Virus record (IMG/VR): IMGVR_UViG_3300021420_000064
Coordinates: 1-44,525 of that record
Direction: 5' to 3' (one strand)
From: a virus
Length of the DNA: 44,525 nt
The position numbers and the translations under genes are program-made. The notes under the pieces were generated by a model. That model had not been told where the DNA came from and made no database searches. It saw only the letters and a list, made by a program, of their open reading frames with translations. Shown here piece by piece: positions 6,407 through 38,379 of this stretch. Each line of letters opens with the position of its first letter. Position 1 is the stretch's first letter.

Positions 6407-6762
6407 CAGTGGGCACGCTTAATCTTGGCAAGTCCCTTGCCCGCCAGTTCCAGCGTCTTGTTGATCCTCGCCGCCTGTCGGTCGTTCAATCCGACGCTTT
6501 CCACATCATGCAAAGCCTCGTAATAGGCCACGCCGGATAGTCCCGCAGGCTTTCCTTCGGAATGCCATACCGTCGCAAAGCATCCGTTGGGGAACTTGTT
6601 TTTCTCGACAGGCACGGCAAACTTCAATTCCAGCCCGCGATACATTTCCGGGGTCACAAATCCGTCTGCCACGTAAACCTCGATGCCATGCAGCTTCGTG
6701 CGAAGAACCGGCTTTATCGGTGTGTCCGACAAAAACCGCTCCAACCGTTCTTTGGTGTTCAT
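6406..6762 (-). CDS. Hypothetical protein between large terminase and portal
   Basis: 118 aa, overlapping the terminase stop by 4 bases (ATGA) and the portal start as TGATG, so it is translated as part of the packaging block. A mixed alpha/beta protein: central strands (GIEVYVADGFV, LELKFAVPVEKNKF) followed by a basic helical C-terminus (RQAARINKTLELAGKGLAK). No family recognised. Position suggests a packaging or head-assembly accessory role. Confidence 0.8.
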   Translation of the reverse strand: MNTKERLERFLSDTPIKPVLRTKLHGIEVYVADGFVTPEMYRGLELKFAVPVEKNKFPNGCFATVWHSEGKPAGLSGVAYYEALHDVESVGLNDRQAARINKTLELAGKGLAKIKRAH

Positions 6763-8210
6763 ATTCTCGCGCTGGCGATTGGCTGTTGCGGTGCTTGCGA
6801 GCGGCGAACGGCGTACGAATCCGGCGCAACCCCGTATCGTTTCATCATCACCGCGTAGAAAGTTGCCTTCAAAATATCGTCACGCTGGGCTACGATGCGC
6901 CCTTCCTTGCGGTGATAGCTGCGCTTTTCCTCAAACCACAGCGGCAGATTGGAAAACACCTTGAACCGTCCGGTGTTCATAAGTTCCAGAATTTCATCAA
7001 CAATCGGCTCTACGGGCTGAGAACCGCCGGCCTCGTGCTCGCCGTACCGCTTCGAATACCGCGCCGACTTCGACAGCATATTGACGCCGTGATCGCGGTA
7101 GTGCTGCGCCAACGTCTTGCCGCCGGATTTCTCCCGGTTCATGCCGTCATGCGGCCATGCTACAGGAATGAATTTGTTACTCTTGTTGAGCCATGCCGCG
7201 TGATAGGCCGCGGTCTGGCCCTTGGCCCGGTAGCAGTCGATGACGTAAATCTTGTCGAGCTCGCGATCCCAGGCAATCTCGACGCCAGCCGCCGGGTGGT
7301 CGATGCCGAAGTCAATCCCTTTGATGCGGGCAAAATGAACGGGGATCTTGAACGGATCGATCCTGATGTCGTCGTCCGCGACCGGGAACACCGCGCCCTC
7401 GCCCATCATCGGAATGCCCTTAGTGCGGGCGTCACGTTCATGGTCGCGGTAGGATGCCGACGCTCGAGCCTTATCCTCATCGCTCAAGTGTGGCGCGTCA
7501 TCCCATGTCGCCGTCTTGAGATAGACCCCGGAATCCTCGCCGGCCGTCATGAAGTGATCGACCAGCTCAGTCATGCCGTGCAGCGGCGTGAACGTCACCA
7601 GCACAATGCCGTGCGAGGTGATAACGCGGGTCTGCGCTTCCGAGAAAATCTTGTAGTCCTCCGGTTCCTCGTCTAGCCACACGACATGCGGCGCGGTGCC
7701 CTGCCATTTCTGCCAGCCCTGTTCGTATGATTTGAGGATACAGGTCGATAACCCGCCCGACTTGTGCCGCACCTGGAACGACTCAGCGACGTTCTTGACG
7801 CCCGCCTGCCGCGTCGTCGGGCGACCGACAATCAGTGCTCGAGGAACCCAGCCGCTACCGAGTTCCTGCCCAAGACCGCCAAGCAATTCCGTCTGCACGA
7901 TGTCGCGCGATGTCTCGTTGGTCGGCGAGCCGGTCCAGACCAAAACCGGCTTGTCGAATCGCTTGCCTTGCCACCAATCGGGATAGTTTCCGGTCAGGTG
8001 ATAGGAAACCTCGCATCCCGCGCACGCCGTCTTGCCGACACGGGAGGCCGCCATCAGCATCCGCTCGGGATTGTCGGCACCAGCGACGTGAAATTCGGAC
8101 TGCCACGGATACGGCTTGTATTTGACGATCCTGTTGCCGGCGATGTCACGGTGGAATTTTGCAACCAGGGCCGCAAGCCGCGGCGCCTGCTCTATGGTGA
8201 TCCCAGCCAC
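6759..8210 (-). CDS. terL: Terminase large subunit
   Basis: 483 aa from a GTG start overlapping the previous gene by 19 bases. The ATPase part has a Walker A variant SRVGKT at residues 56-61 and a Walker B VVWLDEE at 176-182 with the catalytic acidic pair. A coupling motif VTFTPL lies near 205-210. The nuclease half begins with GIDFGID (Asp300, Asp304), an RNase H-like metal site, and later has an aspartate in RDDILKATF. It powers packaging through the portal and cuts the concatemer. The small subunit is not adjacent but about 9.8 kb upstream in the same operon. Confidence 0.95.
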   Translation of the reverse strand: MAGITIEQAPRLAALVAKFHRDIAGNRIVKYKPYPWQSEFHVAGADNPERMLMAASRVGKTACAGCEVSYHLTGNYPDWWQGKRFDKPVLVWTGSPTNETSRDIVQTELLGGLGQELGSGWVPRALIVGRPTTRQAGVKNVAESFQVRHKSGGLSTCILKSYEQGWQKWQGTAPHVVWLDEEPEDYKIFSEAQTRVITSHGIVLVTFTPLHGMTELVDHFMTAGEDSGVYLKTATWDDAPHLSDEDKARASASYRDHERDARTKGIPMMGEGAVFPVADDDIRIDPFKIPVHFARIKGIDFGIDHPAAGVEIAWDRELDKIYVIDCYRAKGQTAAYHAAWLNKSNKFIPVAWPHDGMNREKSGGKTLAQHYRDHGVNMLSKSARYSKRYGEHEAGGSQPVEPIVDEILELMNTGRFKVFSNLPLWFEEKRSYHRKEGRIVAQRDDILKATFYAVMMKRYGVAPDSYAVRRSQAPQQPIASARI

Positions 8211-9414: not shown

Positions 9415-10047
9415 CTAGGCTCCGTAGGTGAATTGGCCGACATGGCCAAGCCTGACTTTCGGGTCCATCATGATCTTGTATCCGGCTTCCCGAGCCAGCC
9501 GGCAAAAGTGATAGTCCTCGCTCTCTAGTCCATCATCGTGCAGAGGGGTCATATAGAACGCATGCACGCGACCATCGGGGCCTTCATAGCTGGAAGTTGT
9601 CTTGGCGAGTTTTTCAAATACGCACCGGCTAATGCACATAAATCCAGTGCCGGCGTAGTCCACCTCGATTGGTCCCTTGAACTGATCGAGATCCTTGACC
9701 AGCGCACCGTCTTTCCACGCCGCAAACCATTGTTTGTCCGGTTTCTTCATGGCGTAAACGCCCACGCCGATGTCGGCTTCCAGGTTCCACACCGCCGCCA
9801 CATCTTCCGGCAGAAATTCAATGTCGGCATCTATCCAAAAAAGATGGCTATGATTGCTAGCGATAAAAGTAGCCGTCATTTCGTTGCGAATACGTGTGAT
9901 CAAGCTATCGTTTTTTCCAATAAGCCAATCGTGCGGAACTCCCTTTTGCGTCAGTTCTTCCTTGAGATTGAGACACGAACAAAAATGAGATGCGGTGATC
10001 ATGCCGCCGTAGCACGGCGTGCAGAACAGAATGGACGGCTCAGTCAT
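9415..10047 (-). CDS. GT-A type glycosyltransferase
   Basis: 210 aa from ATG 10047, which overlaps the upstream stop by 8 bases; a longer in-frame start at 10092 would lie inside the tailspike gene. The N-terminus ILFCTPCYGG starts a Rossmann-type sheet. RNEMTATFIASNHSHLFWID leads into the DXD motif DAD used to bind metal and sugar nucleotide. A later DYAGTGFMCISR and the acidic ESEDYHFCRLAREAGYKI match the acceptor and catalytic part of small GT-A enzymes. It probably adds a sugar to a virion protein, DNA or host glycan. Confidence 0.82.
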   Translation of the reverse strand: MTEPSILFCTPCYGGMITASHFCSCLNLKEELTQKGVPHDWLIGKNDSLITRIRNEMTATFIASNHSHLFWIDADIEFLPEDVAAVWNLEADIGVGVYAMKKPDKQWFAAWKDGALVKDLDQFKGPIEVDYAGTGFMCISRCVFEKLAKTTSSYEGPDGRVHAFYMTPLHDDGLESEDYHFCRLAREAGYKIMMDPKVRLGHVGQFTYGA

Positions 10048-12274
10048 ATGAACGCTTGTTCGTCTTGACGACAAACGATGGAGGATTGTCACTTAATCGG
10101 CGCAATCCATCCGAACTTGCAATTACTTTCCCCAATCTGACATTCGTCGGATGCGCCTCAATCTCTGATTCCCCGATCTCGTAATCCTGCTGTCCGTCCA
10201 GAACGCAATTTATTGGCAACTCCAAAATAGTTGTATCCGTGATATAGCCATAGCCAAACGTCAGAATGACCGGACCGGTGAGCGGTGCCGTTGCAAACGT
10301 CAAATTGCCGGCACCATCATTGGACACCGACACGGCATTGCCGAACAGATCTCGTGCCTGGCATGTGACAACGTTTGCGCCGACCGCGAAAGTAAAATTG
10401 AAGGTGCCGATTGTTGGGTACGCGATAATGGTAAATGATGTGGCGCTTTTTTCAATGACCACCATGATGAACTCTGGAAACGCCGGGTTCCCGTGGTAGC
10501 TTATGCCGAAGCAGCGGATAGAAATTGCCCCGGAGAACGCCGCTATCAGTGCCTTATAGGCGACCGCGCTAGGCAGAGGATTAAAGCTGGCGTCGAAATA
10601 TCCGTAAAAGTCCTGGTCCTGCACCAGAACGTAGGGCTGTATCACTGCGGCTCCCTGGATGATGAGCCAGATCATTTCACGGACGTTGAACACAGCCTTC
10701 AACGTCTCGGAGCCGTTGCATTCTGCGGTATAGAAGCCAAACTCGTTGGCGGCGATCGGATGAGCCCCGGCCGCCGTCTTGAACGAGGACCACAGCACTT
10801 CTACATATTCCGGCGTTTGGCTGCTCGGAAGGCCGCCAGAATACGGATGAAACCCAACAGCAGTCAGATGAGCTGCCTGCGCGGTGTCGGCCAGGAATGA
10901 GGCGACGAACGTATCCGGGGCGATAAATCCAGAACCGCCGCCCGGTGCGACACCACCAGAAATGATCTTTGCTCTAGGCAGAGCGCCTATAATGGCAGCC
11001 GTCGTCGCATCAAACAACGTGGCGTAATTGGCGGCATTCGCTGCTGGCGCGGCTGAGTATTGCCCAGGGCCGTTGCTGATGTTCTCCTCGTTCCAGATCT
11101 CATAAGTCATATTTGTGGGGCCGTAGCGAGTAGCTACTCCCGCGTAGGCGGCCTTGAAGGCGTTAATCCCGGTCGTATCAGTTGGCAGAGTAAAAAAGGA
11201 GTTTTCGTACAGCGTATTGCTGTAGCTGCACGTCACGTCCACATTGTAACTCGCCGCCGTCAGGGCCGGTAAATACGCATCTGGGATGGTGTACGTGTAC
11301 ACCCCCAGCGATGCTTCAATCACCTCCCAGGTAACGCAGTCCAGCCGTAGCGCGGTGCATCCAAGGTATTCCAGCATCGAAATTGTGCTGGCCACCGGAA
11401 TCGGCGTTACACCTAGATTGCCGATCGTGGTGTGCGAGTTGATGCCGAACACCGGTAGCGCAGGTGCGCTGATAAATGACATCGCGCCAGAGTTCAGAGC
11501 GATAGGATAAGCGTTGAGGCCGTCAACCGTCAGGAAGGCATTGATCGCATTTGTCACATTGGCGATGTTGAGTTGACCATCGCCGATAAAGAATGCGCTG
11601 ATCTGAGCGGTACCAAAGTTATCAATAGAACCGATGTCGTTGAGGGCGCCGACTAAGACGGTTTTGGTTGGAACTGCCGTCGGTCCTGCCGAAGCGGTGC
11701 TGATGAGTGAGCCGTCCCAATAACTCGCCTCGGCCGCAACCCCGGTACGACAAGCAGCCAACGCTCCTTTTGAATTTCCGTAAAGTGCTGGGCCAGCCAT
11801 ATTAAAGCTGGCGTCGTTAATGCAGCTTGAATACTGGTTATAAGAGCCATTGGTGGCGTAGTTGATGACGAACGAGAACGAAACCGTAGCCGCATCGGAA
11901 GCACCCATCACGCTCGCGGCACCAGGGGCGGCGACGGTCGAGTACAGGCCCATGCTCGCTGAGTTCAACGAGTATTTCGCACCAACGGCTGTCGAAGGAT
12001 TGAACTGCGTGTCGATGTAGCCGGTCGAGCCATCCCCGGTGAAGCCGGCGTTGGCCGCGAAGGTCATCCCTCCGTGGACGACGCCAGTGTATTTAGAGCT
12101 GATTAAGTTGGTCAGCGCGGTTGGCGTGTCTATCGCATCCCATATTTGCAGCACATCAAGATGCGCCAAGTCGCCGGTAGCCGAGAGCGTGTTAAAAAGA
12201 GTTTGGTACTGCGCAAGTCTTGTCCCGGTCGGCTGCGTTGCCAATCGCGCCAAAAACTGAGACAAATCGGTCAT
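10040..12274 (-). CDS. Tailspike with glycoside hydrolase clan A domain
   Basis: 744 aa. Three parts are visible. Residues about 1-260 are beta-rich with FTGDGSTGYIDTQFNP, like a concanavalin/LamG lectin sandwich. Residues about 270-580 read as a TIM barrel with LGCTALRLDCVTW, the acid/base motif YEIWNEEN (Glu396) and the nucleophile region ANEFGF (Glu511), the spacing of clan GH-A enzymes such as GH39 or GH5. The rest is a C-terminal beta sandwich. No signal peptide. The likely role is a virion-borne depolymerase that recognises and cuts host capsular or exopolysaccharide. Substrate cannot be read from sequence. Confidence 0.8.
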   Translation of the reverse strand: MTDLSQFLARLATQPTGTRLAQYQTLFNTLSATGDLAHLDVLQIWDAIDTPTALTNLISSKYTGVVHGGMTFAANAGFTGDGSTGYIDTQFNPSTAVGAKYSLNSASMGLYSTVAAPGAASVMGASDAATVSFSFVINYATNGSYNQYSSCINDASFNMAGPALYGNSKGALAACRTGVAAEASYWDGSLISTASAGPTAVPTKTVLVGALNDIGSIDNFGTAQISAFFIGDGQLNIANVTNAINAFLTVDGLNAYPIALNSGAMSFISAPALPVFGINSHTTIGNLGVTPIPVASTISMLEYLGCTALRLDCVTWEVIEASLGVYTYTIPDAYLPALTAASYNVDVTCSYSNTLYENSFFTLPTDTTGINAFKAAYAGVATRYGPTNMTYEIWNEENISNGPGQYSAAPAANAANYATLFDATTAAIIGALPRAKIISGGVAPGGGSGFIAPDTFVASFLADTAQAAHLTAVGFHPYSGGLPSSQTPEYVEVLWSSFKTAAGAHPIAANEFGFYTAECNGSETLKAVFNVREMIWLIIQGAAVIQPYVLVQDQDFYGYFDASFNPLPSAVAYKALIAAFSGAISIRCFGISYHGNPAFPEFIMVVIEKSATSFTIIAYPTIGTFNFTFAVGANVVTCQARDLFGNAVSVSNDGAGNLTFATAPLTGPVILTFGYGYITDTTILELPINCVLDGQQDYEIGESEIEAHPTNVRLGKVIASSDGLRRLSDNPPSFVVKTNKRSYD

Positions 12275-12296: not shown

Positions 12297-13001
12297 TTAG
12301 CGGGTGATGACTCGTATAGACCTATCAAATAAAAAACAGCCGTTCTTGAAAAATACCGAGGTACAGCCCCGGAGAACTACGCCCGGAACGGCACCATGGA
12401 AATCAACCCGCTGGAATAATTCCTTGTCGCAGAACGCTTCAAAAATACCATACCCATCGGAATTGTCGCAGATGATCGCGCCATTTTCCTCCAAAACCCC
12501 AATCGCGACATCGACCAGCTCGGCGCGATAGAGACCATCAATAACAACAATATCAAATCTCTTTGGCTCTGCCTCGTCCAGAATTTTGCGCACATGCGTT
12601 ATGCACGTTTCCGCGTCCGGCGAATGAGCAAAATAGACGGCTACATTTAGCGGAGCAGCACACTTTATTTTCTCGAACCATCTTTTGTCTGCGTCTATCG
12701 CGATCACCGATCCAGCTCTAGTAGCCCACCAAAGCGTTGATTGCCCCGCACCAAACTCCAACACACGTCTGCCAGAGAAAGACCTCCGACTCAGAAAATC
12801 AATGGATGGATAGGTATACCAAGGCAACGGGTCGCCAAACCTGTCCACCGCACGGAGCAGGAAGGAACTCCTAAAATGTCCGGCTTGATAGTAGTGGAAG
12901 AACGGCGTGAATACGGCAGTTACAACGCTGCGTATCGGATTGGATATCCACGGCGGAAGCCGTTTGACGGGCGCAAAGTACCTGTGGATCCAAGTCTGCA
13001 T
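12297..13001 (-). CDS. SAM-dependent methyltransferase, class I
   Basis: 234 aa. Motif I VLEFGAGQSTLWWA, motif II VIAIDADKRW and motif IV FDIVVIDG are spaced as in class I methyltransferases, with EENGAIICDNSD as the next strand. The N-terminal 70 residues are basic and aromatic. The DNA is clearly richer in A and T than its neighbours and the gene is separated from flanking ORFs by short gaps, which suggests acquisition. A hairpin (13014-13035) lies just upstream. Target is unknown; beside a glycosyltransferase and tailspikes, methylation of a sugar is the leading guess. Confidence 0.82.
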   Translation of the reverse strand: MQTWIHRYFAPVKRLPPWISNPIRSVVTAVFTPFFHYYQAGHFRSSFLLRAVDRFGDPLPWYTYPSIDFLSRRSFSGRRVLEFGAGQSTLWWATRAGSVIAIDADKRWFEKIKCAAPLNVAVYFAHSPDAETCITHVRKILDEAEPKRFDIVVIDGLYRAELVDVAIGVLEENGAIICDNSDGYGIFEAFCDKELFQRVDFHGAVPGVVLRGCTSVFFKNGCFLFDRSIRVITR

Positions 13002-13049: not shown

Positions 13050-13175
13050 TCATTGGAGCAGGTTTCCGGTCGCATCCGTCAACAACGCGGTATAGAGAAC
13101 GACGAACCGTTGTGCATAGGCCGTTGCTACTAAGAGCAAGACAATGACGACAGCCAGATAAATCCTCTTTGCCAT
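13050..13175 (-). CDS. Small exported or membrane peptide, 41 aa
   Basis: ATG shares a base with the stop of the beta-helix gene (TGATG). The N-terminus is a textbook signal peptide: basic MAKRIY, a hydrophobic core LAVVIVLLLVA and a cleavage-like AYA before Q. The mature part would be only about 20 residues (RFVVLYTALLTDATGNLL). It is the last of five successive ORFs with such signals. Too short for family assignment. Confidence 0.6.
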   Translation of the reverse strand: MAKRIYLAVVIVLLLVATAYAQRFVVLYTALLTDATGNLLQ

Positions 13176-14683
13176 CAATGCACCGTCAACACGCCGCTGT
13201 TGTTCCAAAGCTGTCCAGTCACCAAGCCAGACGCGCTCGTCGGCAAACCTAGAAACACGTCCATGGTTTGATTACTGCCGATTTCATCCGCCATGATGAC
13301 CGCGTTTGCAACAGTCGCGTAATTGATCTGCGCTATTGTCAGAGGCTGCAAATTGTTGCCAACGGACAGCAGAATGGGCGTCGTTGGCGTATTGCCAAAA
13401 CCGAACAGCACAGAATTGGCCGCCGACTGGACAATGCTATTGTTGTCCAGAAACGTGAAGCGGCCGCCGCCTACGAAATAAAAATATCCGTTGGCAAGCG
13501 CGTTGGTGGTTGTCAGTCGATTGGACCGCCAAACGATTGTTCCGCTATTGTTTCCGTTCACAAGGCCCTGCAAACTGCCTTCCGACTGATTGTCCTCAAT
13601 TTCGCTTGTCTCGGTGCTTTGCAGTACATAAACCTCAACATCGTTGAGCCCGCCACCCAAGCCATTGATAAAGAACGATCCATTCTCATTATCAACACCG
13701 CGCGCACATTGCGAAATGGTGTTGTTCAGCAATATCTGGTTTTTGTTATTGCCGCTCGGGCCATTGTAGAACCCTGTTCCGTAGGCTTGTCCGGTGTGGA
13801 TGGTTACGCCGGTTTGGCTAAACGACGCGCCAGCGGTAAGAATTACCGTCGTTCCGTTGGTGACGGAGGCGATGGTCGTGTCGAGAATGCCGCCCGCGTA
13901 GCTGACCCGGATGCGAGCACCCACGTCACCGCTGACGAACGCGGCGGTTGCGGATGTAAGCGTTGTCGTTCCGTTTGTTACGCCGTCCCGCGCCCGCAAG
14001 ACCGCGTTAGTGCCCGAGCAGATGATCGCGTTGTTGGTGATTTGCGCGTTTTCGTTATTGCTGGTAGCCGTCGCGGAAACCGAAATGGCCTTGAAGTTTG
14101 CGTTGTTTTGCGCCGAGCCATCGAAGAAATTGTTTTCCACGATCGGCGCGGTGGAGATGTACGTGCCACCTTGACCGTCGAAGTTCACGTAGCCGTTGAT
14201 TGTCTTGCCGGCAGCCAAACCAAAATAAAACCCCCTCACGACGGGCTGGATATCGCTCTCGAAATCGAACATCGGGCCGGTGCCGGTGCCGTGCCAGATG
14301 AAGGAAGGCGGCCCGGACTGGCTCGCCTTCGGTATCTGTAGAGAGATCAACTGTATATTGCGGCGATTGGAGCCGGTGATCTTGGCGCTGATATAAACGA
14401 TGCAGCCTGCTGGCGCGACCAGCGAACTGAAATCCGGCATCGCATTGATGGCGTTCTGCAATGCCGTGGTGCTGTCGGCAACTCCGGTACAGTCGATCCC
14501 TACGTCGGGAAACGATGTCCAAGCATCAACGGCGCGAGTCGCCGGCGTGCGCGTGGTATTACCGCCAGTGACGGCATAAGGAACGGTGCCGTTGTATTGC
14601 GCGCAAGTAGATCCTGCTGGGCACGCCGCCAGGGCTGGCCACGGAGCCACCAGCAACAGGAGGCTGAAAATAAGCCTTTTCAT
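13175..14683 (-). CDS. Exported beta-helix (pectate-lyase-like) tailspike protein
   Basis: 502 aa. The first 20 residues are a Sec signal (MKRLIFSLLLLVAPWPALA, then A-C). Next comes the start typical of right-handed beta-helix spikes, FPDVGIDCTGVADSTTALQN, followed by many short strands rich in N, G, T and S (ENNFFDGSAQNN, ITNNAIICSG, LLNNTISQC). The C-terminus has GLPTSASGLVTGQLWNNSG, a tail motif often seen on phage virion proteins. So it looks like a virion spike but carries an export signal, which cytoplasmically assembled spikes lack. It may act at the host surface or in the periplasm. ATGA overlap with the 55-aa ORF upstream. Confidence 0.8.
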   Translation of the reverse strand: MKRLIFSLLLLVAPWPALAACPAGSTCAQYNGTVPYAVTGGNTTRTPATRAVDAWTSFPDVGIDCTGVADSTTALQNAINAMPDFSSLVAPAGCIVYISAKITGSNRRNIQLISLQIPKASQSGPPSFIWHGTGTGPMFDFESDIQPVVRGFYFGLAAGKTINGYVNFDGQGGTYISTAPIVENNFFDGSAQNNANFKAISVSATATSNNENAQITNNAIICSGTNAVLRARDGVTNGTTTLTSATAAFVSGDVGARIRVSYAGGILDTTIASVTNGTTVILTAGASFSQTGVTIHTGQAYGTGFYNGPSGNNKNQILLNNTISQCARGVDNENGSFFINGLGGGLNDVEVYVLQSTETSEIEDNQSEGSLQGLVNGNNSGTIVWRSNRLTTTNALANGYFYFVGGGRFTFLDNNSIVQSAANSVLFGFGNTPTTPILLSVGNNLQPLTIAQINYATVANAVIMADEIGSNQTMDVFLGLPTSASGLVTGQLWNNSGVLTVH

Positions 14684-14847
14684 CTTGTCAGCAGCGCGCC
14701 GCTAGAATTGGTAAGCAACACGCCATTCTGATCCGTCAACAGCACAGGGAGACCACCACCGGCGCCAATTGGATTGTAGATTCCGTCCGCGCTCGCGCCG
14801 AACGCAATCGACATCATGACCAGCAGAGTCAGGCATCCGCGCAACAT
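14680..14847 (-). CDS. Small exported peptide, 55 aa
   Basis: Coupled at both ends: ATG shares a base with the preceding stop (TGATG) and its stop overlaps the next ATG (ATGA). Signal peptide MLRGCLTLLVMMSIAFGASA is followed by a glycine-rich mature part with the near-repeat LLTDQNGVLLTNSSGALL. The same LTD..GN.L pattern appears in the 41-aa peptide at 13050-13175. No family recognised. Confidence 0.65.
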   Translation of the reverse strand: MLRGCLTLLVMMSIAFGASADGIYNPIGAGGGLPVLLTDQNGVLLTNSSGALLTR

Positions 14848-15785
14848 CAGAAACCCCAATACGACCGAACGTTGGCACTTAACGCCAACTGATTTGCGCT
14901 GGAAAGCGCCGATGGCCAGATGCCGGCCGCTACATAATTGCCGACACCATTAGTCGATCCCAAGCCGCCGCTTATATCCTGACATCCAACCGTGATGGTC
15001 GAATTAAACGCCTGCGTGCCGCCGCTTCCCGTTGTCACGCTGCCATTCTTGGATACTGAGGATGATGTTCCCGACGCGGCGAATTGCACCACCTGGAATG
15101 AACTTATTGTTGGGGCGGCTCCGGTCACGCTCGCGCCGGCATAACCCAGCCAATCAACCGTTGTGTCCTGTCTGATAATTGCGCCGGTAAATCCACCACC
15201 GCTGTCTGACGCCATCGGAACGCCGGTCGCGGTTGTGGTCGGATCGATTGCCACCAGCATCGTATAGGGCTGCGCGTTCGAGGCCGATCCCGCTGTGACC
15301 AGACACTGGCTGGTCGCTATGCCCCAACATGGGAGTGACCCTAGACATAAGCGCGTTACCGCTGGACCGGACCCAACCGGCGTTGGTATTTCGGTGACAT
15401 TTCCCAGCGTCGCCGTCTGGTCGTAGAGCGTCCCAACCTCACAACCGCTGGCGCAGGTCGTCGCCAGCGATTGCAGCGTCTCGTGAATGACGCCGCCGGC
15501 CGTGCAGGTAATCAGTGTGTGGTTGACGCCGGCACTGTCGTAGACCGTGGCGACGTTGCCGACATAGGCGGCGCTGTAGCACTGGTAGATCGACCAGAAG
15601 CCGATGGCACCGGAAACGACATCGCCGGGACCGGAGTAGGATGCCTTTGCAGCGGACGGATTATCGATGCCGTCCTGGGCGCCGCCGACCTGATTATTGT
15701 TGGAAATTCCTTCGGCCGCCAGAGTTGCAAAACAACCAAAGGCAAGAACAATAAAGGGCAGAAGCGCCTTACTGCGTATCGACAT
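14847..15785 (-). CDS. Exported lectin-like protein (arabinofuranosidase-B-type sandwich candidate)
   Basis: 312 aa with a Sec signal (MSIRSKALLPFIVLAFGC, FATLAA). The mature protein is beta-rich; FWSIYQCYSAAYVGNVATVY and EVGTLYDQTATLGN echo the pattern of the concanavalin-like domain found in arabinofuranosidase B enzymes, with several cysteines (CTAGG, CASGCEVG, CLGSLPCWG) that could pair in an oxidising compartment. This supports real export. Overlaps the upstream ORF by 17 bases. Likely binds or trims surface glycans; activity is not provable from sequence. Confidence 0.7.
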   Translation of the reverse strand: MSIRSKALLPFIVLAFGCFATLAAEGISNNNQVGGAQDGIDNPSAAKASYSGPGDVVSGAIGFWSIYQCYSAAYVGNVATVYDSAGVNHTLITCTAGGVIHETLQSLATTCASGCEVGTLYDQTATLGNVTEIPTPVGSGPAVTRLCLGSLPCWGIATSQCLVTAGSASNAQPYTMLVAIDPTTTATGVPMASDSGGGFTGAIIRQDTTVDWLGYAGASVTGAAPTISSFQVVQFAASGTSSSVSKNGSVTTGSGGTQAFNSTITVGCQDISGGLGSTNGVGNYVAAGIWPSALSSANQLALSANVRSYWGF

Positions 15786-16149
15786 AAAGCGTGTCCGCCG
15801 TAGTCGCGCAGGTCGCCTGGATCACATCGGCTGGGATATACGGATAATAGCGGGTGTAAGAACCGCCGGCCAAAAGCAGAATTGACGTTGCTTTCGTAGC
15901 CGAACCGCTGCCCACGAATACCCAGCAGCTATCGGTAGCATTGTTGTTCTGGATCGTCAGCGATCGCCTGTTGTCGCTCGCCGCAAGAACAGTCTGAAAC
16001 GTGTTGCCGGTGGCAATCGATGCGCTGGCATTCGTCGTCAGCGACGTGCCGGGAGCACTCCCCGGCGCATTGTCGGCAAGCGCGTGGGAGCCAAAAAAAA
16101 TGCCCGCCACAATGAGCGGGCCGAGCCACAACCTTGTGCAGCGCATCAT
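15769..16149 (-). CDS. Exported small beta protein, 126 aa
   Basis: Start at ATG 16149 (GAGGA 7 bases upstream). Sec signal WLGPLIVAGIFFGSHALA with ALA cleavage. The mature domain NRRSLTIQNNNATDSCWVF and the ending AGGSYTRYYPYIPADVIQAT resemble small phage appendage domains seen beside tail genes. Two cysteines may pair. It is the first of five successive ORFs with signal peptides. Confidence 0.75.
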   Translation of the reverse strand: MMRCTRLWLGPLIVAGIFFGSHALADNAPGSAPGTSLTTNASASIATGNTFQTVLAASDNRRSLTIQNNNATDSCWVFVGSGSATKATSILLLAGGSYTRYYPYIPADVIQATCATTADTLYVDTQ

Positions 16150-17951: not shown

Positions 17952-18047
17952 TCAGTTTTGTTGCTCGGGATCATCAGCATCATCGCGCCAGTCATCGGGA
18001 TTGTCGTCAGGCTCAGTCTCGTACGCATCCCATTCATCGACCGGCAT
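17952..18047 (-). CDS. Highly acidic micro-protein, 31 aa, after small terminase
   Basis: ATG shares a base with the small-terminase stop (TGATG), so it should be translated by coupling. Fourteen of 31 residues are D or E (EPDDNPDDWRDDADDPE). Reminiscent of DNA-mimic tails or of acidic partners of DNA-binding proteins. A second acidic micro-ORF lies directly before the small terminase. Confidence 0.5.
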   Translation of the reverse strand: MPVDEWDAYETEPDDNPDDWRDDADDPEQQN

Positions 18048-18547
18048 CAATGCGCAGTCTCGCTTTCCCACTCAATACCCTGCTCGTGCGCCAGCTTGGC
18101 GGCGAGCTCGGGTGCGAATGCGGCGATCTCGCGCAGTGCCATCATCGGGTCATTGACCATCACGTCCAGGCGCTCGGTGTAATGCCCTTCGACCTTGCCA
18201 ATGAGCTGCTCAGCCTGCACTGCGGCGCCAACGTTGCCAGTCTCGACCGCAATCTGGCGTAGTGCATCCAGGCGCCTGATATGCTGCTCTCGTGTGACGA
18301 TGCACTGGCCTAACTCAGCCTTTCGCGCTGCACCAATCCATTGCGCCACCTTGGCATCGGATCGAAGCTTGGATGCATTGCACCAAATACTATTGGGCAG
18401 CATGTTCGAGCAATCATAAGCCGCACGATAAGCGTCGCTCGAGGTTTTGCCGTTGAGAATGCCATCGACAAAATTGCGCTGCTGCTCGGTAAGGTCCGGC
18501 AGGTCCGCCCCTTCCTCGATAGCCGTTATCTTACGCCGCATTCTCAT
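18047..18547 (-). CDS. terS: Terminase small subunit
   Basis: 166 aa. The N-terminal LTEQQRNFVDGILNGKTSSD with AYRAAYD is the HTH-containing start typical of the Terminase_2 small subunits, followed by NSIWCNASKLRSDAKVAQWI and a long central helix for oligomerisation (RLDALRQIAVETGNVGAAVQ). It binds the packaging site and loads the large subunit. The start lies inside the acidic 24-aa ORF (17-base overlap) and has no strong ribosome site of its own, so translation is probably coupled. The large subunit is encoded about 9.8 kb further along the operon. Confidence 0.88.
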   Translation of the reverse strand: MRMRRKITAIEEGADLPDLTEQQRNFVDGILNGKTSSDAYRAAYDCSNMLPNSIWCNASKLRSDAKVAQWIGAARKAELGQCIVTREQHIRRLDALRQIAVETGNVGAAVQAEQLIGKVEGHYTERLDVMVNDPMMALREIAAFAPELAAKLAHEQGIEWESETAH

Positions 18548-18605
18548 ACTCGTCGTAGTAGTCGTCGTGAAAATCTGTGTCGTCGCTTTCCGCTGCCGAA
18601 GTCAT
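18531..18605 (-). CDS. Highly acidic micro-protein, 24 aa, before small terminase
   Basis: Runs into the small-terminase start with a 17-base overlap. Residues ESDDTDFHDDYYDEYE make it strongly acidic. A 7-codon ORF (18602-18625) with a good AGGAG site ends in ATGA overlap with its start, so ribosomes could enter by that leader. It may act as a coupling leader or as an acidic partner peptide. Low size limits certainty. Confidence 0.4.
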   Translation of the reverse strand: MTSAAESDDTDFHDDYYDEYENAA

Positions 18606-18858
18606 CGACTGTTTCTAGGTGACATAGTATCTCCTGCTGTGCTCGCCGCAGGAAAGACTGTTGAAAAACCGCATCGATCGGAAGCTGCAACAGTTCATCG
18701 GATGCCCTAACGATATCTATCATCCCAGGGGCAACAGGAATAAATCCGGCCGGACCTTGAACTAACTGTGCCGCAGGGGCAGCAATTGCCGATAAACCTG
18801 ACGCCGACGCCGCGCCAAAGCCCAAGAGCGACAAAAAAGACCTTCGACTAGGCCGCAC
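18544..18858 (-). CDS. Tat-signal ORF carrying a capsid N-arm copy, 104 aa
   Basis: GTG start at 18858 with GGAGG 6 bases upstream, overlapping the ATP-grasp stop. The N-terminus is a twin-arginine signal: SRRSFLSLLG, then FGAASASGLSAIAAPA. Residues about 57-74 (PIDAVFQQSFLRRAQQ) match the capsid N-arm PINAVFQQTFLRRAQQ, and the DNA around it (18645-18680) is also recognisably similar to the capsid gene. After that the similarity stops and the tail is basic and low in complexity, overlapping the acidic ORF and terminase start in another frame. Either a real chimeric exported peptide or a decaying capsid duplication. Confidence 0.5.
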   Translation of the reverse strand: MRPSRRSFLSLLGFGAASASGLSAIAAPAAQLVQGPAGFIPVAPGMIDIVRASDELLQLPIDAVFQQSFLRRAQQEILCHLETVDDFGSGKRRHRFSRRLLRRV

Positions 18859-20095
18859 GTAACGCCTCCATATCGGCTGCCGCCGTCTCCAGCGCGGCAA
18901 TATCGAACTTCACGTCATAGCCCTTGACCTGCTCGGCTATCGCCTGCACCGCGGCAATCGCCGCCTGCTTGGTCGCACCGCCGGCCACTACCGCGCCAAT
19001 CTCTGGCATGGTCACCGCCTGCGGCACGTAATACCGCTTGCCACCGATCATCGTGAGATAATGCAGCTTGACGTTATCTGTGTATTCTTGTGTAATATCA
19101 ATAGGTTGCCAGCCATGCTCGGCCCAATCGGAGCGCAAGATAAGCTGAGCGCCGAACGGATAGAGCCATTCCGGCTCGACCAGCTCGCCATCGGCGCCGG
19201 CCCATATCACTTCCGCCAGATTGGCGATGAGATATTGATAGAGCTCGCCGGGCGGGCTTGCCATGCGGCAGCACGGATCGATCATGTACGGCGTGCCATC
19301 CTCGGCAACCCTGATCTCCGAAGAAAAGAAGCCGCGGTAGCGCAGGTCGCGAAACAAGGGGGAGAGTTTTGTATTCACGTACCCTAGCGACCGCGGCAGA
19401 GCCGAATAAACCGACACCTGGCCGATATAGCCTGCATCCTTGGTTTCGACACCGAACAACGCTTTCTGCGGATACCGGCCGTCGATGGTGAAGCCGTCAT
19501 AACCGACTTCCGCCTTGGCCTCTATCGGCGCCTCAACGACGAACTCAGTGATATGCTTCTTCGCGCCCAGCGCATGCTCAAGCTCGTCAAGCCGCGGTTC
19601 GATGAGCTGGTACGTCTTGGCGTGGAACGTTTCCATATCGCCGCGGGTGCGCGATATCTTGACGTACTGATCGTCGTGCGTCTGCAAGAACCGGCGCAGA
19701 TCGTTGGTGCCGTGAATGACCCGATACGGCCCGACCGGCAGGCCAAGATCGCGCAGCCATCGCTTCGACTTGGCGCGCTCAATCTCCAGCGATTCCGCCA
19801 ACCCTGATCCCCACACCCGCTTGCCGATACCACGCAGATAAACTTGCAGCGGCCCGTGGAAGATATCGGGAAAAACGAACAGGTCGATATCGTCAATCAA
19901 CGGCCATATCGAATTGACGCGCGTAACGCCCGATATGCCGTCGCCGATGATGGTGCTGTTACTGCGGGGAAATCCCTGTTCCCACGGCGAGTGGTACAGC
20001 ACGCGGCCGAATGACTTGGCGAGGGTTTCAGCGAGCGAGACGAACAGGCCGTTATCGAACACGCAGCACGTCTTGGACGCCAGATTGTCGCTCAA
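18848..20095 (-). CDS. ATP-grasp-like protein
   Basis: 415 aa. Signs of the ATP-grasp fold: a lysine-containing strand DDQYVKISRTRGDMETFHA, the strand ITEFVVEAPIEAKAEVGYD, and the metal-site region FSSEIRVAEDGTPYMIDPCC with RMASPPGELYQ, like the acidic/Asn ligands of that superfamily. The first 100 residues look like a pre-ATP-grasp Rossmann domain. The start is a TTG 3 bases after the UAG of the upstream ORF, which lies in the same frame. Probable ATP-dependent ligase of unknown substrate, possibly modifying a peptide or nucleotide. Confidence 0.7.
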   Translation of the reverse strand: MSDNLASKTCCVFDNGLFVSLAETLAKSFGRVLYHSPWEQGFPRSNSTIIGDGISGVTRVNSIWPLIDDIDLFVFPDIFHGPLQVYLRGIGKRVWGSGLAESLEIERAKSKRWLRDLGLPVGPYRVIHGTNDLRRFLQTHDDQYVKISRTRGDMETFHAKTYQLIEPRLDELEHALGAKKHITEFVVEAPIEAKAEVGYDGFTIDGRYPQKALFGVETKDAGYIGQVSVYSALPRSLGYVNTKLSPLFRDLRYRGFFSSEIRVAEDGTPYMIDPCCRMASPPGELYQYLIANLAEVIWAGADGELVEPEWLYPFGAQLILRSDWAEHGWQPIDITQEYTDNVKLHYLTMIGGKRYYVPQAVTMPEIGAVVAGGATKQAAIAAVQAIAEQVKGYDVKFDIAALETAAADMEALRAA

Positions 20096-35985: not shown

Positions 35986-36759
35986 TCACCAGAGAACTTT
36001 GGTGTAGGCAAAATACTGATTGCCGAACGAGCCGGCACCAGCAAACTTCGGAGATCCAGGCCCTGCAATCACGGTGAATCCCTTGTCGGCGAACACGACT
36101 TCAGCTCCGAGATCGAGCGCGGCGCCGGTCGGTTTTCCGGTTGCGTCAATGATCTGCGCAATAGCGCCGGCCTGGATCATGGGGGCAACTCCCCAAGTCG
36201 TAGTGCCTACGCCGACGAAATTGCCGTTCTCACCCCATTCCTTTGCCCCGGCTCCGATGTAGAGCTGCGCCGCGCTGAGAAGAATGCCGGCGGGCGACGT
36301 TGGGATCAGATTTGAAAAGGTGAACGGATTAGTGATGCCGAAGTTCGGGAGATATTGCAGCGGATTCCAACCGTGAACCCGGACCACCGTTTCGTTCGAC
36401 CAGCGGCTTACCGTTGAGACTGGCGCGCTCGTCGCCGTCGCGGTGATGTTCTGATAGTCGAGCGAGTCCTCGATCGCCCACCAGAAGGACGCATTGCCCT
36501 TGGTCCAGCCGAGCGTGCCGCCGATCGCCCCGCCGGCAGCGTTGAGGTTGCCAGTAGCCAGCGAACCCACGAACGTCGGATTGCCGGCGACGGAGTTCTG
36601 CTGCACCCCGGCCATGGTGTTGATGCCGAAGTAGAAGCCGGAACTGTCGTACGGATAGGCCGGCGGTCCAGGCGGCGCCTTGCCGAGAAGCGGCAAATCG
36701 GCAGCAAACGCCGGAAGGGCGAAAATAGCCGCAAAAACACTGAGAATTAGCTTGTGCAT
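35986..36759 (-). CDS. Outer-membrane beta-barrel protein, 257 aa
   Basis: Sec signal LILSVFAAIFALPAFA then ADLPLLGKAPPGPPAYPY with SSGFYFGINT, the start of Rhizobiales Omp25/Omp31-type barrels. Alternating amphipathic strands follow (AIGGTLGWTKGNASFWW, LYIGAGAKEWGENG, ALDLGAEVVFADKGFTVIAG), and it ends in FGNQYFAYTKVLW with a C-terminal aromatic as outer-membrane proteins require. Not a virion protein by these features. It may mask the receptor or change the host surface. It has intergenic gaps on both sides, unlike its coupled neighbours. Confidence 0.8.
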   Translation of the reverse strand: MHKLILSVFAAIFALPAFAADLPLLGKAPPGPPAYPYDSSGFYFGINTMAGVQQNSVAGNPTFVGSLATGNLNAAGGAIGGTLGWTKGNASFWWAIEDSLDYQNITATATSAPVSTVSRWSNETVVRVHGWNPLQYLPNFGITNPFTFSNLIPTSPAGILLSAAQLYIGAGAKEWGENGNFVGVGTTTWGVAPMIQAGAIAQIIDATGKPTGAALDLGAEVVFADKGFTVIAGPGSPKFAGAGSFGNQYFAYTKVLW

Positions 36760-37601: not shown

Positions 37602-38068
37602 GCCGCCACCTCTGTAACCGGCGTGTTGAATAGCTTGCCCTCGGCCGCGCGACGGCGCTCCAGACCAAGCATCACCCTGCCGCCCGCGTGGTCCCACATC
37701 ATGAGATCGGCGGAGACCTGCGCGTTCTGGCCGACATTGACCGAGCGCAAGACATTCGACCGATCGAGCGCGCCAGTGTTGAAATCGAAACTCACCAGCG
37801 CATCGAATTGGTTTTGGTTGATCTGCGCCGTGACGTGATGGTTCACATCGGCCTCGACTGCCGCGAGATCGCTAGACAGGATCGCATCGGCCTCGTCGGC
37901 GGCGATCAGCATCCCTGACCGGACGGCAGGCAGACCGGCCGCGCTCGTGTGCCCATAGCCGATCGTCCAGACGCCGGTGCCGTCGTCATAGGCTTTCAGG
38001 CTCAGGCCCTCGAATTGTTCGATGAGCTTGCGGCCGTTGGCGCTGGTTTTCATCGGAGGGCTGATCAT
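37598..38068 (-). CDS. Endolysin, GH24 lysozyme, 156 aa
   Basis: Start ATG 38068, coupled to the upstream stop. T4-type catalytic triad with correct spacing: Glu20 in IEQFEGL, Asp29 in AYDDGTG, Thr35 in VWTIGYGHT. The rest (NQFDALVSFDFNTGAL, RRAAEGKLFN) matches the GH24 helical lobe. It cleaves the MurNAc-GlcNAc bonds of peptidoglycan. No signal peptide, so it needs a holin. Confidence 0.92.
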   Translation of the reverse strand: MISPPMKTSANGRKLIEQFEGLSLKAYDDGTGVWTIGYGHTSAAGLPAVRSGMLIAADEADAILSSDLAAVEADVNHHVTAQINQNQFDALVSFDFNTGALDRSNVLRSVNVGQNAQVSADLMMWDHAGGRVMLGLERRRAAEGKLFNTPVTEVAA

Positions 38069-38379
38069 GCTGTCGGCTGTATGAAAATACAGTGCGGATA
38101 TTTGGGCTCGCCGACCGCCTCGCCGTTCCAATAATTGCGGCCTACGCAGACGTGGCACTGCTGGTTGAAAGAGAGATGAGTTTGATCCCGGTTGAACTTG
38201 AAGCCATGCCACTCGTATCCCTTGCTGGTCTCAGTGATCTGATCGCAGGGAATGGGGTGGCAATCGCCGTCAACTTCCGTGCCGTTGCAGCAGAGCGGCG
38301 GATAACTGTCATGCGCCATGGTCGGAGTAACAATGAGCACAGCCGCAATCGCTGCGGCTACGAAGCGCATCGGCAGCAT
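38065..38379 (-). CDS. Secreted Cys-rich protein, 104 aa
   Basis: Signal peptide RFVAAAIAAVLIVTPTMA then HDSYPPLCCNGT. Seven cysteines (30, 31, 40, 45, 75, 78, 97) and the ending HCIFIQP resemble the HD-YP-CC type secreted proteins common in Rhizobiales and their phages. Placed before the endolysin, it may act in the periplasm during lysis, but no activity is known to me. Confidence 0.7.
   Translation of the reverse strand: MLPMRFVAAAIAAVLIVTPTMAHDSYPPLCCNGTEVDGDCHPIPCDQITETSKGYEWHGFKFNRDQTHLSFNQQCHVCVGRNYWNGEAVGEPKYPHCIFIQPTA

Follow-up and report, generated by a model that had tools for sequence, protein, structure and literature searches.

Signal-peptide-bearing spike- and lectin-type genes in the structural operon of a podophage-type genome: a candidate exported tail-fibre module

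The tail fibres of tailed phages are generally regarded as products of cytoplasmic folding and assembly. Why should a run of genes in the fibre slot of such a phage begin, one after another, with what look like Sec signal peptides? The question is raised by IMG/VR virus record IMGVR_UViG_3300021420_000064, whose 44,525 nt form the window analyzed here. The window is that of a soil phage, and its backbone is podophage-type, with a head–tail adaptor (phrog_332), a major head protein (phrog_1357), and large and small terminase subunits (TerL and TerS). Five consecutive ORFs, all on the minus strand, lie between TerS and TerL (Table 1). They are present as first annotated and overlap by 17 bp (15769–15785), 1 bp (14847), 4 bp (14680–14683), and 1 bp (13175). 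A search with TerL yielded 65 related loci. Their TerS–TerL slots differ greatly in content and for the most part contain fibre-type genes that lack a signal, in many cases with a phrog_1574-like gene behind them; in two of these relatives, L020 and L026, a single gene with a signal lies near the slot position. The run in the window thus sits in a variable slot of a structural operon, as expected of a tail-fibre module, and this position suggests that the five genes are expressed late, before lysis.

Table 1. Features of the slot and its borders, with the score of each N-terminus in a home-made signal-peptide scorer, the predicted first mature residue (+1), and the cysteine count of the predicted mature part.
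Feature	Coordinates	Strand	Description	Signal score	+1	Mature Cys
p126	15769..16149	-	Predicted signal MMRCTRLWLGPLIVAGIFFGSHALA, cleaved before D-N-A, and small domain of all-beta type; first gene of the module throughout	6.4	D	2
p312	14847..15785	-	Predicted Sec signal and Cys-rich lectin-type protein, probably concanavalin/arabinofuranosidase-B-like	12.5	A	8
p55	14680..14847	-	Predicted signal and mature peptide of ~36 aa starting DGIYNP	6.4	A (or D)	0
p502	13175..14683	-	Predicted Sec signal and spike-type protein	9.5	A	6
p41	13050..13175	-	Predicted signal and 20-aa mature peptide QRFVVLYTALLTDATGNLLQ	8.9	Q	0
p234	12297..13001	-	Methyltransferase-like (weak matches), no signal; between p41 and p744			
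p744	10040..12274	-	Glycoside-hydrolase-like, no signal			
TerL	6759..8210	-	Terminase large subunit, phrog_2; one border of the slot			
TerS	18047..18547	-	Terminase small subunit, phrog_51; other border of the slot			

The scorer was trained on 32 known signal peptides of Gram-negative bacteria, and its sensitivity is that on this same training set. With ORF starts picked partly by signal score, all five N-termini reach at least 6.4, in agreement with the Sec signals claimed in the initial annotation; by this measure, n-, h-, and c-regions and a signal-peptidase-I site were found and are kept in homologues. Since just 0.58% of the ORFs of the shuffled window (n = 6019) score 6 or more, five such scores in a row are not a matter of chance, and a chance origin was rejected. 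The A-x-A ends ascribed to all five are seen in p126 (ALA), p502 (ALA), p41 (AYA), and p55 (ASA, set by homology with an A↓DGI site, the arrow marking cleavage), but p312 ends in T-L-A. As read from the sequence, none of the five predicted mature proteins has a lipobox cysteine at +1, and an identity as exclusion lipoproteins was rejected on this ground.

The hydrophobic N-termini might instead be virion anchors that merely resemble signal peptides. Indeed, two ordinary tail fibres of phage BcepIL02, gp59 and gp62, have Ala-rich N-termini that also score above 6, as false positives. Because such N-termini can fool the scorer, the main argument rests on comparative evidence, described below. 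On that evidence, the anchor explanation is highly improbable: a basic n-region and an A-x-A end with Q or D at +1 recur across divergent sequences, Sec-like and Tat-like types alternate, the mature start is conserved, and cysteine counts tend to be even.

Relatives of the protein p126 are found in viral contigs and in one contig of Bradyrhizobium sp. YR681; without the duplicates L069, L088, and L094, they number 28 distinct loci. A uniform start call placed 26 relatives, of which 25 score 6 or more and the remaining one 5.6, and the gene-by-gene scores of the two that it left unplaced, L077 and L096, are 13.5 and 8.7. In all, a signal-peptide-like N-terminus is predicted in 28 of 28. Identity between the relatives is 22% in the signals (14% when shuffled) and 54% in the mature domains, indicating that the property of being a signal, rather than its sequence, is maintained. 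Cleavage is predicted at A↓Q in most of them. By gene position, signals are found in 25/26 p126 genes, in 19/24 of the next genes, and in 6–7 of 21–23 genes at each of positions +2 to +4; the corresponding figures are 0/58 for positions −5 to −3 and 3/49 for far genes. Twin-arginine, Tat-like starts, defined as RRx[FLIVM][LIVMA] ahead of the h-region, occur in L071, L073, L083, L084, and L093; the L083 homologue of p744 has this motif, and p744 of the window does not.

Carriers of the module appear to be rare among sequenced isolates, since searches at the level of the YR681 family and order, covering 392 and 397 genomes, found p126 in the YR681 genome alone. A search of INPHARED gave no match for p126, p312, or p502. 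Single-sequence scans with p312 and p502 of viral contigs and INPHARED, and with p312 also of genome contigs, returned no homologue; homologues of these two were found only via p126 neighborhoods and an alignment-based scan. A rhizobial host for the window phage is plausible because the YR681 contig contains both a p126 homologue and a 415-aa gene at 50% identity. The window copy of this 415-aa gene (18848–20095, minus strand) is likewise ~50% identical in the p126 contigs L079, L095, and L075, whose capsid genes are unrelated. The module in a Bradyrhizobium genome contig would also suit a conversion of the host surface, in which exported proteins decorate or modify the cell during infection or lysogeny and, for example, block superinfection, and the window codes in addition for a signal-bearing protein with an outer-membrane-barrel-like end. 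This explanation is nevertheless improbable, as the genes lie inside a packaging and structural block, tail-type domains occur in the module, and the five proteins lack a +1 lipobox cysteine.

A second comparative feature is a motif of the type [AT]DGIxN, which the second gene of about 20 loci has right at the point of predicted cleavage; the motif is also present in p55 and, as AEGISN, in p312. No DGIxN following a signal was seen in the signal-less TerL relatives. In L119 (4268–5810), a signal-less lectin and its neighbor both start with MADPTG(I/N)NS, which could be the cytoplasmic counterpart of the exported DGIxN start. At the other end of the proteins, a C-terminal motif LLTDxxGxLL is common to p41, p55, and the p502 homologue of L083 (10185–10796).

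Cysteine content was the third feature. The extra cysteines that had been noted in the mature parts are found in p126, p312, and p502, whereas p55 and p41 have none. Across the module, 42 of 48 Cys-containing, putatively exported proteins have an even number of cysteines (p = 5e-8, an approximate value because some of these proteins are related to each other), against 58 of 119 (49%) signal-less genes of the same loci and 25 of 60 signal-less slot genes of the TerL relatives. Median cysteine content is 1.6% in the former and 0.8% in the controls. Even counts are what disulfide formation would give. The cysteine pair of p126, C50 and C89, is conserved in 28 of 29 sequences, both residues being missing in the 29th, L077.

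The identity of the proteins was approached through domains and structure models. The 48 module proteins matched pectate-lyase-like, ArabFuran-catal, GH43, GDSL, S74, CBM5/12, and LamG families in Pfam and several tail-fibre and tail-spike families in PHROG, each family being matched by one to three proteins. In L067, a signal-bearing protein of 762 aa has an S74 chaperone at its end and matches annotated tail fibres of phage isolates over its C-terminus. In the window itself, p126, p312, and p502 gave no informative named family and no direct tail-fibre match. The link of p502 to spikes is through its N-terminal 80 aa, which are 51% identical to a pectate-lyase-like protein of L083. By inference, p312 is of lectin type; the ArabFuran-catal, LamG, and GH43 matches belong to the wider module set, not to p312. 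An AF2 model of p312 built from four sequences was set aside (pLDDT 41), and searches of PDB sequences with p312, p502, and p744 produced chance-level matches only, so that the glycoside-hydrolase assignment of p744 depends on a motif reading, namely the catalytic-type motif IWNEEN read from its sequence. For p126, the AF2 model (pLDDT 92) is an all-beta domain with weak Foldseek matches in the PDB to Ena pili, cupins, and the PM2 spike, and the fold is taken only as all-beta or jelly-roll-like. Among viral structures, p126 is matched best by small phage proteins, two of which are the predicted structures I2FLS9 and I2FLT0 of Pseudomonas phage tf; at 95 and 87 aa, these two agree in length with tf_60 and tf_61 of the phage tf fibre cluster. 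The Pfam scans gave no match to a muralytic catalytic domain (lysozyme, amidase, or transglycosylase), and an endolysin identity was rejected.

These domains bear on the possibility that the set is purely secreted, i.e., that soluble or envelope-bound proteins degrade or coat host exopolysaccharide so that progeny can spread, and never enter the virion. Enzyme-type domains (GH43, GDSL, arabinofuranosidase-type, CBM5/12, and pectate-lyase) combined with signals are in keeping with such a role, and the mature p55 and p41 are so short that they would be odd spikes; phage enzymes with signals and an extracytoplasmic site of action are known from lysis (PMC6116005). The matches of module proteins to PHROG tail-fibre families and to an S74 chaperone count against a purely secreted set, which is retained here as a possible but doubtful explanation.

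Comparison with L083 connects the run to its signal-less neighbor. Residues 6–675 of p744 are 52% identical to the L083 glycoside hydrolase (GH), which has the Tat-like signal, and its last 67 residues (678–744) match the C-terminus of the signal-less proteins found in this slot in the TerL relatives; judged from these matches, p744, itself signal-less, is a chimera of a GH-like body and a C-terminus of the resident lineage. A fusion of this kind in nature suggests that bodies with a signal can be exchanged with fibre parts of the resident lineage. A short way upstream of p744, the mature part of p41 starts with QRF, like the L083 GH, and p41 may be a remnant of the signal end of that enzyme. 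The gene order of L083 (p126, p312-type lectin, p502 N-terminus, GH) is the same as in the window, and its backbone is P22-like (portal phrog_156, head phrog_283). The TerL, portal, head protein, and TerS of the window have no match in the p126-carrying contigs, and p126 occurs on at least three further groups of backbones. The p312-type lectin has a signal in L083, L089, L090, L115, and L116 and is signal-less in L119. Collectively, these observations support horizontal exchange of the module between unrelated phages, and this swapping of bodies between signal-bearing and signal-less forms argues against a set that is purely secreted.

To date, no description of signal-bearing tail fibres was found in a search of open-licence literature. 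The filamentous phage coat proteins pIII and pVIII of M13 have Sec signals and assemble at the inner membrane. Although these are likewise virion proteins with Sec signals, M13-type phages are extruded single-stranded DNA phages, whereas the head protein, portal-type adaptor, and terminase of the window are of the kind found in tailed double-stranded DNA phages. Another close likeness is to podophage fibre clusters, which also combine a hypervariable slot with spike and carbohydrate-active domains of the kind found in related modules. In the tf_58–tf_64 cluster of phage tf, a small all-beta protein of similar predicted fold lies beside genes for fibres and a particle glycosidase, and a gel suggested the presence of gp63 in the virion (PMC3517423). 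However, tf_60 and tf_61 have neither a signal nor a Cys pair, while most genes of the present module have an export signal. Exported proteins known from tailed phages are mainly lysis enzymes (PMC6116005). Secreted and SAR endolysins, such as Lys44 of Oenococcus phage fOg44, are also phage-coded and leave the cytoplasm through host Sec ahead of lysis (PMC6116005), but they are muralytic, and no domain of that type was matched in the module. What appears to be new here is that receptor-binding modules of a known type would be coded for export.

Taken at the level of sequence, maintenance of the signals, disulfide-type cysteine parity, fibre and carbohydrate domains, and exchange between phages are all supported. 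The sequence gives strong support to the export of a coherent set of phage proteins to an oxidising compartment, through signals that are divergent yet universal, a conserved mature N-terminus, the Sec and Tat-like types, even cysteine counts, and the spike-, lectin-, and glycosidase-type parts. The initial annotation had proposed either a secreted set or virion parts added outside the inner membrane; this interpretation is partly supported, in that the sequence favors export but does not separate the two. We infer that the proteins are in fact exported and cleaved, that they dock to virions, and that p126 acts as an adaptor, and we give an even chance to the explanation that the run is an exported receptor-binding and depolymerase (tail-fibre) module that docks to virions at lysis. 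In this scheme, the structural operon would yield several spike-, lectin-, and glycosidase-type proteins, which host Sec, or Tat for some relatives, would carry across the inner membrane. Signal peptidase would then release the conserved mature N-terminus (A↓DGIxN, usually in the second gene), and disulfides would form in the periplasm. At lysis, the exported proteins would encounter the cytoplasmically assembled heads and tails and attach to them, probably with p126 as the adaptor, and the virion would be completed outside the cytoplasm. Some of the exported protein may stay soluble and act on exopolysaccharide.

Docking is preferred to a purely soluble role because the genes occupy the fibre slot, because S74 and tail-fibre matches occur, because unrelated bodies share a new N-terminus, and because no obvious signal-less spike was seen in G011, the contig of L083. 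Against docking, G003 (L070) has a signal-less fibre-like gene beside signal-bearing ones, the slot of the window also contains the signal-less p744, and dilution after lysis must be overcome. The wider proposal is more tentative and falls somewhat short of an even chance: a widespread class of tailed phages would export spikes by Sec or Tat, oxidise them in the periplasm, and dock them via a DGIxN N-terminus made by signal peptidase, with the export-coded spike cassette moving between unrelated backbones. If export holds, either virion completion is possible outside the cytoplasm or phages export a multi-protein kit for attacking the matrix, and either outcome would call for a different approach to annotating and expressing the host-range proteins of soil phages.

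Other genes of the window share some of these features. A 257-aa protein (35986–36759, minus strand) without a Pfam match has a strong signal (score 16.7) and the C-terminus TKVLW, which looks like the end of an outer-membrane beta-barrel. A 104-aa protein (38065–38379, minus strand), also without a Pfam match, has a strong signal (score 15.7) and seven cysteines. The gene at 18544–18858 (minus strand), which has a Tat-like RRSFL start, contains LPIDAVFQQSFLRRAQQ, a stretch near-identical to the N-terminus of the major head protein, PINAVFQQTFLRRAQQ (3687, minus strand), and the C-terminal tail of p744 starts with the related LPINCV (10225, minus strand).
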